Source: Candidatus Fermentibacterota bacterium (lineage in GTDB: Bacteria; JAFGKV01). From it: DNA of 7,111 bases. The notes beneath the pieces are model-generated. The model had not been told where the DNA came from, did not search any database, and saw only the letters and a program-made list of their open reading frames with translations. Shown here piece by piece: positions 3,936 to 7,111 of this stretch. The position numbers were made by a program, and so were the translations under genes. How positions within the stretch are numbered: position 1 is the stretch's first letter; the number at the start of each line of letters is the position of its first letter. The stretch covers positions 1 through 7,111 of the forward strand of contig JAUXFG010000181.1 in NCBI GenBank assembly GCA_030620115.1, in the 5' to 3' direction.

Positions 3936-5156
3936 ATGAGTTTCAAAAAAGATGGACAGTTTCGGAGATTCGCCGCCTATGGGTTCTTGAAGAACCTCCG
4001 ATTCTTCGAACCCTTCATTGTGCTGTACTTCCGCGAAGAGGGTTTCTCCTTCCTTGAAATCGGCACCCTTTTCTCAATCCGCGAAATCGCCATCAATCTC
4101 CTGGAACTTCCTACGGGTTTCGTGGCCGACATCTATGGCCGAAGAAGATCCATGGTCTTTTCGATGCTTGCATACATCACGAGCTTTGTCCTGTTCTACT
4201 TCTTCCCTCACTTCTTTCTCTGCGCCATGGCCATGATCTTCTTTGCCGTTGGCGAGGCCTTTCGAACCGGCACACATAAGGCGATGATCCTGGAGCATCT
4301 GCGACTCAATGGCATGTTGGACATGAGGGTCGAGTACTACGGCTCCACCAGGGCTGCCTCGCAACTTGGGTCAGCGCTCAGCTCGATTCTCGCGGCTGTG
4401 CTGGTGGTGTGCAGCGGCACCTATCGATTGATCTTTCTCGCATCGGTTGTGCCCTACGCGGCGAACCTAGTCAACCTCGGCACGTATCCCGGAAAGCTTG
4501 ATGGTGAGATCGGAACCCGCAGAAAGAGGGAAACCATCAAAGAGTTCTTGCTCATCTTCAAGCGGGAAGCGGCACTCACGAGTGTTCTGAACTCAGCGGC
4601 CTTTGACGGATTCTTCAAGGTCGTCAAGGACTATCTCCAACCGATTCTCAAATCCCTCGCTCTCGGGCTGCCGGTCTTGCTTGCGCTGGGCGGGCAGGAG
4701 AGGACGGCGGTAGTGGTGGGAATAGTCTACTGTATCATCTATCTCGGAACCAGCTGGGTATCGAAAAACGCCGCAAAGCTTACGAGCGGCCTGAAGGACA
4801 AGGAAGCAGCGATTCACCTGACCTATTTCGCTGGTGCCATATGCGTCACCGCGGCGGGATTGCTGCACCACTTCGACGCACGGATTGCATCAGTTGTCGT
4901 TCTCCTGCTTCTTTATCTTCTGCAGAATATCAGACGACCGATCAACGTGGCCTACATCAGCGAGAATATCTCCCACCGTGCCATGGCATCGGGCCTTTCC
5001 GCAGAATCACAATGCAAGGCGCTGCTGATGGCTGTGTTGGCTCCGGGCGTGGGAGCCCTTGCTGACCATTTTGGCGTTGGAGGCGCCCTACTGCTCACAG
5101 GAATGGCGATGACGTTTATTGGCTATGTGGTGCGGCCTCGACGATCTTCCCTTTGA
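3936..5156 (+). CDS. Major facilitator superfamily (MFS) transporter
   Basis: This encodes a 406-aa polytopic inner-membrane protein of the major facilitator superfamily, which move small solutes or drugs using an ion gradient. The MFS signature (motif A) in the loop after the second helix is clear: GFVADIYGRRRS at 61-72, with the key Gly, Asp and Gly-Arg-Arg. The chain shows about twelve hydrophobic segments in two halves, with a charged central loop near 183-212 (TRRKRETIKEF) as expected between the six-helix bundles. Length is typical. The start is ATG at 3936, with GGGAG 9 nt upstream; the frame is open back to 3822, but those 38 residues are polar and would precede the first helix without purpose. 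Substrate unknown; drug efflux is a common assignment but is not shown here. No neighbour on the plus strand is close enough to form an operon, and no clear terminator follows. Confidence 0.88.
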   Translation: MSFKKDGQFRRFAAYGFLKNLRFFEPFIVLYFREEGFSFLEIGTLFSIREIAINLLELPTGFVADIYGRRRSMVFSMLAYITSFVLFYFFPHFFLCAMAMIFFAVGEAFRTGTHKAMILEHLRLNGMLDMRVEYYGSTRAASQLGSALSSILAAVLVVCSGTYRLIFLASVVPYAANLVNLGTYPGKLDGEIGTRRKRETIKEFLLIFKREAALTSVLNSAAFDGFFKVVKDYLQPILKSLALGLPVLLALGGQERTAVVVGIVYCIIYLGTSWVSKNAAKLTSGLKDKEAAIHLTYFAGAICVTAAGLLHHFDARIASVVVLLLLYLLQNIRRPINVAYISENISHRAMASGLSAESQCKALLMAVLAPGVGALADHFGVGGALLLTGMAMTFIGYVVRPRRSSL

Positions 5157-5372
5157 CCAGTGCTTGACAAGCCGCGAAGCCTCTCTTAGCTAGCTCCACA
5201 TCTTGGAAACTCGAAAACCGAAAAGAGTGACCGACTTCTTTCTCCTCATGCCTCACGAAAGATCACAGGCTACCCCCCTGAGGGAAAAGCTGACACTCGA
5301 ACACACCTGACACCGCGGGAAATTCGAGGTGAAATCCAACGCTTTGATGTTCTGAAAATGCGCTGCCATTGT
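5157..5372. other. Spacer after the MFS gene, no gene seen
   Basis: This is the first part of a roughly 920-bp stretch without a confident gene. Long minus-strand frames cross it, but they are only open frames running through palindromic repeats and show no protein-like features. I saw no intrinsic terminator for the MFS gene. The stretch leads directly into the three-hairpin repeat at 5373. Confidence 0.5.
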
Positions 5373-5465
5373 GCCCCGAAGGGGCTTGACATACCAGCCC
5401 AGGGCAAGCCCGATAGGGCATAACCCTGGGGCACGGAAACAAAATGCCCTCAGCCCTGACAGGGC
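5373..5465. repeat. Three-hairpin palindromic intergenic repeat
   Basis: Three hairpins follow each other within 93 bp. The first is GCCCC-gaa-GGGGC (5373-5385). The second is a two-tier stem: outer CCCAGGG (5398-5404) with CCCTGGG (5424-5430), and inner GCCC (5408-5411) with GGGC (5416-5419) around a GATA loop. The third is GCCCT-gac-AGGGC (5453-5465), mirroring the first. Another small hairpin, TGGGC-caaac-GCCCA, follows at 5495-5509. From memory, similar units with central CCCAGGG/CCCTGGG arms flanked by short G/C-rich hairpins are scattered in environmental bacterial genomes and often get annotated as spurious small proteins. The layout resembles REP/BIME-like elements. Whether it is mobile, transcribed or structural is not known from this window. 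Confidence 0.7.
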
Positions 5466-5590
5466 GAGACATGAAAGAGAGAATCGGATTGACATGGGCC
5501 AAACGCCCAACACCGAATGAGTGTAGGGAATCGGGGAATGAGAAGAAGAGAGCGTGCAGCATTGAGGATGATGGAACAAGAAGCAAGGAG

Positions 5591-5691
5591 AGATTCTTCG
5601 CTCCTTGCAGTCGCTCAGAATGACAGTGGTAGTGCATAAGTGGGTGTGTGAATGCGTGTCATTCTGAGGGAGCACAGCGACCGAAGAATCT
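5591..5691. repeat. Pair of inverted 35-bp repeat units with mismatched cores
   Basis: The left unit (5591-5625) begins AGATTCTTCG and ends CTCAGAATGACA. The right unit (5657-5691) is its inverted partner, beginning TGTCATTCTGAG and ending CGAAGAATCT. Both are exactly 35 bp: the outer 12 bp and 10 bp match perfectly and only the central 13 bp differ. The units are 31 bp apart and could form a long hairpin with an internal bubble. The same class in another variant occurs at 185-308. No transposase is nearby. A terminator role for flanking genes is unlikely given the distance. Confidence 0.7.
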
Positions 5692-6078
5692 GGGAGGGGG
5701 GAAATGGGGAGAGAAGCCAAATGCTTGAATGAGGGAATAAACGCCGAAGTAAGAGCCTCAGTGGGCTGGTGGATTGAATGTGTGATATTTCCAAGATCTC
5801 CATAGCGACCACGCGGCCCGCATGGTCGATCCTGTGACACAAAGCGTCTAATGTCTTTATCCTTGATCGGAATCGGCATCGAATTGAGGCATGATCACAT
5901 GGTCCTCAATCACGAGAATCTGGATGTTTGATGAAGGCGAGAGCAACGGGGTGGGTTATTTCGATCGCGATTCCGATTCCGATGATTTTGTGGGGATCAG
6001 GGAATGGCCACGGTATTATGTGTGTCCAATAGTCGCTGAGGGAAAAGGGGGATACCCCTCCAGCATCGGAGATGTCAA
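5692..6078. other. Spacer before the GGDEF gene; small ORF and gene scrap only
   Basis: No confident gene. On the minus strand, 5833-5783 reads RIDHAGRVVAMEILEIS, which resembles the C-terminal strand of DUF2283-type small proteins, but the frame lacks the rest of such a domain, so it may be a decayed remnant. On the plus strand a 66-codon frame (5891-6091) overlaps the start of the GGDEF gene by 13 nt; it has no good ribosome-binding site and its translation is not recognised. ATCGGAATCGGCATC (5866-5880) is matched 14/15 in inverted form at 5969-5983. Confidence 0.45.
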
Positions 6079-7111
6079 GTGGCAAGGATAGGCAAAGAAT
6101 TCATCGATCATCTGACCAACCTCTATAATCGCCGTTATCTATCCAAGAGGATACGAGATAAGATCTCCGAAAGCCAAGAAACGGAACTTCCATTATCAAT
6201 AGTATTCATTGATATTGACAATTTCAAGAATATAAATGATATCTATGGCCATGCTACTGGTGACGTCGTTCTCAAGGAATTCGCGATATTCTTGAAATCT
6301 TCAGTGCGACGTGATGATATGGTGTTTCGCTATGGCGGCGACGAATTCATCTGCATGCTTCCCAATACCGATTATGAACGCGCCGCCATGATTTCCCAAC
6401 GATTCATAGACCAATCCCGAACAAAGAAGTTCTCCGACATACGTTTGACCTTGAGCGTGGGAATTGCCTCATCTCCTGTGGACGGCATCGACTGGCCAAC
6501 AATCTTTTCGGCAGCAGACAGAAACCTCTATAGCGCAAAGAGGCATGGCAGAGATCGCATAGGTGTTGCTCGCAAAGAAGGAAGGGAACTCATTATCCCC
6601 ACAGAGGAGATCATCGGCCGTGACTCAGAGATCGCCAGGATTGGGGAATTTCTCGATCCCATTCTTGCGGGTGCCGGTGGCGTAGTGAATGTGAGCGGAG
6701 AGGTTGGCGTGGGGAAGACAAGGTTGATACATGAAGTCCTCAGGAAGCCCAAATTCCGAACTGTCCGGTTTTTCGGAAGCGCTCTGTCGGCCACCACAAG
6801 CTCGATTCCCTACTATCCGTTCAGGGAAATGCTGCGAGCCGTTCTCGCCAAGGAGGGCAGGAAAAGCGTGACGCGGCTCCCCTCGGCCTATCAGATCGAA
6901 CTTATCAAGATATTGCCCGAGCTTTCAGATGAATCAATAGGGCATCATAAGCCATTCATGCTCGACAAATTCCGATTGTTCGAAGGCATCAGACAACTGT
7001 TGGCATCCCAATTGGAAGATGGCCCTCTCTTTCTCTCATTTGATGATCTTAATTGGGCTGATCGTGGTTCATTGGATCTCTTACACTACCTTGTCAGGAC
7101 ATTGAAGAGCA
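6079..7111 (+). CDS. Diguanylate cyclase (GGDEF) fused to AAA/STAND-type ATPase, 3' end beyond window
   Basis: The visible 344 residues start with a GGDEF domain (about 8-165) that by family makes cyclic di-GMP from two GTP. It shows DHLTNLYNRRYL at the domain start, the metal-binding FIDIDNFKNIND (43-54), a full GGDEF at 86-90, and an RxxD inhibitory site (R77, D80) at the canonical spacing, so activity and product inhibition both look intact. From about 179 (IGRDSEIARI) an ATPase domain of the AAA_16/STAND type begins: Walker A GEVGVGKT at 207-214 and a Walker B-like LFLSFDDLNWAD at 317-328. The frame runs off the window, so more domains, often TPR repeats in such proteins, may follow. The start is GTG at 6079, with GGAG 7 nt upstream and a TGA in frame at 6037-6039; no ATG is available. 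There is thus no N-terminal sensor, receiver or membrane segment, and it is probably cytosolic. The 5' part is visibly more A/T-rich than neighbouring genes. Confidence 0.88.
   Translation, partial: MARIGKEFIDHLTNLYNRRYLSKRIRDKISESQETELPLSIVFIDIDNFKNINDIYGHATGDVVLKEFAIFLKSSVRRDDMVFRYGGDEFICMLPNTDYERAAMISQRFIDQSRTKKFSDIRLTLSVGIASSPVDGIDWPTIFSAADRNLYSAKRHGRDRIGVARKEGRELIIPTEEIIGRDSEIARIGEFLDPILAGAGGVVNVSGEVGVGKTRLIHEVLRKPKFRTVRFFGSALSATTSSIPYYPFREMLRAVLAKEGRKSVTRLPSAYQIELIKILPELSDESIGHHKPFMLDKFRLFEGIRQLLASQLEDGPLFLSFDDLNWADRGSLDLLHYLVRTLKS

Follow-up and report, generated by a model that had tools for sequence, protein, structure and literature searches.

The three-hairpin module described here lies on a 7,111-nucleotide stretch of DNA from a Candidatus Fermentibacterota bacterium, which is referred to as the window. 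The module occupies an intergenic stretch between an MFS transporter gene (end at 5156) and a GGDEF/AAA gene (start at 6079). Its outer end is formed by hairpin 1 (GCCCC-GAA-GGGGC, 5373–5385), which is supported by the sequence, by the other copies and by compensated pairs in relatives, and its inner end by hairpin 3 (GCCCT-GAC-AGGGC, 5453–5465), the side that faces the transposase gene tnpA in complete elements (loci L083, L052 and L095). Between them stands a central stem of two tiers (5398–5430): an outer tier, CCCAGGG (5398–5404) paired with CCCTGGG (5424–5430), encloses an inner tier, GCCC (5408–5411) paired with GGGC (5416–5419). The hairpins and the stem are annotated without strand. 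Read directly from the window sequence, these coordinates agree exactly with the preliminary description, which had drawn three hairpins with a two-tier central stem at 5373–5465. Hairpins 1 and 3 are each followed by a short tag on the forward strand, a detail absent from the preliminary description: TGACATA after hairpin 1 (5387–5393; TATGTCA on the reverse strand, at the 5′ foot) and the nearly identical GAGACAT after hairpin 3 (5466–5472). The module is therefore two versions of one hairpin-plus-tag unit flanking the central stem. In the first alignment of copies (A1), which supports both tags, every position of TGACATA except the first base is invariant, and this tag is likely a guide sequence. 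The whole module matches covariance model R1 with 86.9 bits (5372–5473, forward strand) and is enclosed by a larger repeat (5287–5510, forward strand) delimited by blast and alignment of the copies in the same genome, window copy included. The sequence folds better than its shuffles (z −3.0 as RNA and −3.7 as DNA; 0 of 200 shuffles as good), and the minimum-energy single-strand fold favors a pairing partly different from the three hairpins as drawn; the evidence from copy number is far stronger than that from folding.

Other repeats are present in the window. A second palindromic repeat at 5591–5691 (AGATTCTTCGCTCC...TGTCATTCTGAGGGAGC), with arms that are 80% complementary, has at least 44 good copies in the same genome and is unrelated to the three-hairpin module. 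Positions 1–360 contain further dispersed repeats (GTCATCGCGAGCGAC...GAGATTGCTTCGTCGC) and a unit ending in CCGGCCTATCCTGAGACATCCCGA that also flanks two module copies elsewhere (L020 and L027). Tracts of GATTCCGATCCCGATAGCGATG-type hexamer-like repeats adjoin many module copies (window 5868–5990; L019, L026, L028 and L029), which makes the genome a mosaic of nested repeats.

The module is repeated throughout its own genome. A blast search with a 161-base query returned 36 matches at E ≤ 1.1e-6 and the covariance model about 36 at E < 1e-3, both lists counting partial copies and inverted right ends as well, and the copies are 87–99% identical across the whole module (blast). These copies split into two groups. 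About half, with the window copy among them, are embedded in the larger repeat spanning approximately 5287–5510; in the other group the module is followed by a different sequence and, in several copies, by an inverted second module. In two copies the tip of the central stem is interrupted by an insertion of about 180 bases (L031, 1112–1291; L032, 1144–1322); the inserted bases, in the inner-stem loop, resemble the repeat at 75–118 of the window (TTCTCACCGGCTTTCGTCGCGA). Two genomes of the same family gave no covariance-model match.

Copies were also found well outside this lineage. An exact 24-base pattern taken from the element was matched by 76 stretches, which represent at least six bacterial groups: Gammaproteobacteria (Thiodictyon and Lamprocystis), Lentisphaerae, Verrucomicrobia, Sumerlaeota, a deltaproteobacterium and a spirochaete bin. 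These matches come mostly from metagenome bins, and single odd ones could be mis-binned contigs; the spirochaete bin gave no covariance-model match despite its 24-mer match. The highest numbers of model matches per genome are at least 150, 134, 116 and 102. The general plan is hairpin 1, tag, central stem, some 20–30 bases, hairpin 3 and tag. Across lineages the outer tier of the central stem is general and the inner tier variable; in many relatives the stem is plain (CCCAGGGCAACGCCCTGGG), and in Lentisphaerae it is often longer. The inner tier in the window is a lineage-specific elaboration of the central stem. In Thiodictyon, a two-ended element of about 185–214 bases is one of the common forms. 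One genome outside the window’s phylum (G217; contigs C11, C15, C17 and C49, loci L165, L170, L173 and L176) holds at least 13 diverged module copies, several of them clustered a few hundred bases apart in the same orientation. The deltaproteobacterial elements L052 and L072 are enclosed by a larger unit whose inverted ends are GTCCGGTTA and which is apparently another insertion sequence (IS) or MITE.

Complete elements are found in other genomes. At L083, L052 and L095, the module (hairpin 1, tag, central stem, hairpin 3, tag) lies directly 5′ of an open reading frame for a Y1 transposase of about 150 residues, and the module in inverted orientation lies directly 3′. The protein matches Pfam Y1_Tnp (PF01797; E 2.8e-22) and the NCBIfam IS200/IS605 model NF033573 (58 bits, cut-off 55), does not match the REP-associated model REP_Tyr_transpos (NF047646), and is weakly similar to the IS608 transposase chain (E 0.075). 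It contains the motifs DHVH, WQ and Y---Q--HH and a C-terminal tail. Since DH[IV]H, WQ and Y---Q--HH are the signature of TnpA-Y1 subclass 1.2 (Quentin et al., 2018, PMC6006769), the partner protein is assigned to this subclass by its motifs. Among 50 partner-type proteins, Y---Q--HH (counted with the pattern Y...Q..H[HYG]) is present in 46, WQ in 48 and Y---NP in none. The preliminary description had advised looking for a RAYT gene (a Y1 transposase) flanked by the same hairpins; a Y1 gene with the hairpins on both sides does exist, in other genomes, and it is of the IS200/IS605-like Y---Q--HH type and not a RAYT. When 33 loci were scanned with the covariance model, 12 (L138, L184–L187, L189, L190, L192, L195, L198, L199 and L202) showed mirrored matches (E < 1e-3) near each end of the gene. 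Among 290 genomes surveyed, a subclass-1.2-type gene was found in 17 and a match to the element model in 8 besides the window’s own genome; the two occurred together in 5 genomes (hypergeometric P 1.9e-5). The absences in this survey are soft, because few candidates were scored per genome and the filters were strict. Many element-bearing genomes show no such gene and many gene-bearing genomes no model match, in a comparison that drew on incomplete assemblies and strict model searches. Module copies far outnumber transposase genes.

No intact subclass-1.2 transposase was found in the window’s own genome as assembled, so mobility in this host would be past or supplied in trans. Traces of such a gene can nevertheless be read in several copies. 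Directly after the tag comes AAGGACAAGAGGATGGCCCAGTCGTTG or a close variant (ATG GCC CAG TCG TTG, M-A-Q-S-L), the same start as in complete elements. Next comes a frame of the type EFLELLQEHRVEYD, similar to the transposase C-terminus, then a YLWD-like scrap, a stop and the inverted hairpin CTGTCACGCCCTTTCAGGGC. The C-terminal scrap was the best of 1470 peptides against the tnpA profile, at a weak 7.6 bits (best shuffled peptide, 5.3). In the deltaproteobacterium, the second copy at L052 and the copy at L072 are internal deletions with an unambiguous tnpA start. Several copies in the window’s genome likely arose from a complete Y1 element, because their left end and inverted right end still enclose the MAQSL start and a short C-terminal tnpA scrap. 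On the strength of these scraps and of the comparable deletions at L052 and L072, the window copy is read as the solo left end of a deleted element, and, as the assembled genome encodes no subclass-1.2 transposase, it should be an inert remnant. The feature at 5373–5465 would thus be a solo end of a non-autonomous (REP/PATE/MITE-like) element derived from an IS200-like HUH/Y1 transposon, a reading to which a probability of about 0.8 is given.

The strongest competitor, itself improbable, is a classical REP/BIME family mobilized by a RAYT of the same genome. This was close to the suggestion in the preliminary description that a RAYT elsewhere in the genome moves the repeat. Two proteins of this genome lie clearly above the RAYT cut-off (NF047646) and one barely above it, and the module is built of REP-like hairpin-plus-foot units. 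However, none of the genome’s five Y1 genes adjoins the module motif, the gene in complete elements is always of the IS200-like Y---Q--HH type and never Y---NP, and the tag is neither GTAG nor GTGG. The REP/RAYT idea was right in kind, but the genome’s own RAYT-like genes are unflanked and the true partner is absent. Two of the genome’s Y1 proteins (L021, 907–1881; L022, 1450–2445) have a C-terminal DnaA-like helix-turn-helix, as in TnpA-Y1 subclass 2.1.

Selection on structure was assessed from base-paired positions. In alignment A1, covariation reached only a modest level, since the exact 24-mer by which most sequences were chosen fixes most of the arms, and a wider set of sequences was therefore needed. 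In an alignment of all model matches (A3), changes on both sides were present at 18 of 18 base pairs, in 230 double-change cells, where shuffles predict 43 and sliding the partners gives no more than 42; A3 was fitted to the model, which inflates this count, and the flank tests described below are independent of it. The earlier proposal of a dispersed element under structural selection is borne out by the many copies and the strong compensatory change, and the module is neither single-copy nor devoid of compensatory changes in relatives. The same covariation, together with the stable fold, could be expected of a structured non-coding RNA, riboswitch-like or regulatory in kind, that recombination had spread; a structured RNA was also the alternative given in the preliminary description. 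That possibility is disfavored and considered very unlikely: the window has no Rfam match at the gathering score, the modules are inserted in either orientation and flank a transposase gene as inverted pairs, G-U type pairs make up 2.6% of paired cells, which is low for RNA and as expected for DNA palindromes, and the hairpin sequence differs completely between transposase families.

For the preferred reading, a derivative of a Y1 transposon, a mechanism can be proposed by analogy with IS608/ISDra2 and TnpA-REP. The hairpins would be bound by the transposase in single-stranded form, the cleavage site would be chosen with the repeated foot tag (TATGTCA on the reverse strand) as guide and cut by the tyrosine, and the element would move through a single-stranded intermediate without target duplication. 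In 13 copies the flanks gave no sign of a target duplication (shared words averaged 2.4, versus 2.5 in mismatched flanks). The search for an exact empty site yielded none; in four relatives, the intergenic region corresponding to that of one Thiodictyon copy lacks the element but has diverged. A classical MITE, mobilized through its terminal inverted repeats by a DDE transposase, would agree with the inverted ends of two-ended copies, which are about 90 bases long, and with the existence of internal-deletion derivatives, but given the absent duplication signal, the Y1 transposase gene enclosed by complete copies and a tag that changes with the transposase, its chances are slight. Least credible of all are transcription terminators or attenuators that recur for their function without mobility, since, apart from the position of the window copy downstream of the MFS transporter gene, the hairpins there lack a 3′ T run, identity extends over the whole module and copies surround transposase genes in other genomes.

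The Y1 transposon reading was extended to the partner genes at large with a set of 50 genes collected by protein similarity, 30 from the survey and 20 from genomes chosen for holding the element. Perfect hairpins were counted in the 150 bases on each side, with other stretches of the same loci as controls, and averaged 2.02 on the upstream side and 2.07 on the downstream side, compared with 0.69 in controls (P 3e-16 and 2e-12; n=50). The upstream flank also resembled the inverted downstream flank of the same gene (median score 36, against 17 for mismatched pairs; P 2e-18), as it did when the mirror test was repeated on 33 genes mainly from the survey (P 3e-13). Mirrored, hairpin-rich ends are general to subclass-1.2-type genes among the 50 genes. 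Within the transposase tree, the GACATA-type tag corresponds to a single clade (one change, as low in 0 of 500 shuffles; branch support 83), in a test that is indicative because L144 and L156, flagged by a loose pattern, were left out after inspection. It is fairly probable that subclass 1.2 in general comprises the enzymes of widespread transposons with mirrored multi-hairpin ends, in which the tag co-evolves with the enzyme, and that these form a further cross-phylum REP-like tag system beside those of GTAG and CnGA. If so, a function and DNA partners would be found for a Y1 subclass whose published description gives it no REP or IS ends, and a palindromic repeat that several unrelated bacteria carry in at least 100 copies would be accounted for. 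The joint variation of hairpins, tag and enzyme makes the family well suited to testing how HUH transposases recognize their ends, and its cross-phylum spread makes it usable as a marker of mobile DNA exchange.

A search of open-access full text, with subscription literature and ISfinder outside its scope, found no description of the element, which is read as new: a family of subclass-1.2 Y1 transposons whose mirrored ends carry three hairpins each, together with their non-autonomous offspring. In its workings it resembles a REPtron or an IS200-type element. Its partner protein is a Y1 HUH transposase, as in IS200/IS605 elements, whereas the ends are inverted three-hairpin modules and not single subterminal hairpins without inverted repetition. 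REPtrons share the many dispersed hairpins, the short foot tag and the inverted pairs around a Y1 gene (PMC3733652, PMC2817692). In REPtrons the tag is GTAG or CGTC, whereas here it is of the TATGTCA type and no 5′ GT[AG]G stands at the hairpin foot; the module has three hairpins with a long central stem, and its partner is of the IS200 class rather than a flanked RAYT with Y---NP. TIRtrons likewise place a Y1 gene between inverted repeats that are also dispersed in the genome, but TIRYT proteins are mostly of subclass 2.1 (Y---NP), and their TIR motif, GGGGWSAS, is not the plan seen here (PMC3733652). PATEs are transposase-free IS200/IS605-type derivatives with near-terminal palindromes, some formed by internal deletion, and lack target duplication, as here; they have no terminal inverted repeats (PMC3119063), and the present element is not a PATE because its ends are inverted three-hairpin modules. 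TnpA-Y1 class 3 is similar in its IS200-like Y motif with Q, its atypical flanking hairpins and its copy numbers of up to hundreds, but has NHVH, Y----Q and a CnGA foot (PMC6006769). TnpA-Y1 subclass 1.2 agrees with the partner protein in its length of about 150 residues, DHVH, WQ, Y---Q--HH and C-terminal tail (PMC6006769). As published, this subclass has no REP, generally no IS200 end structures and a low copy number, and is found mainly in Cyanobacteria and Bacteroidetes (Quentin et al., 2018, PMC6006769). In contrast, the genes described here have mirrored, hairpin-rich ends, give rise to high-copy derivatives and occur in other phyla.
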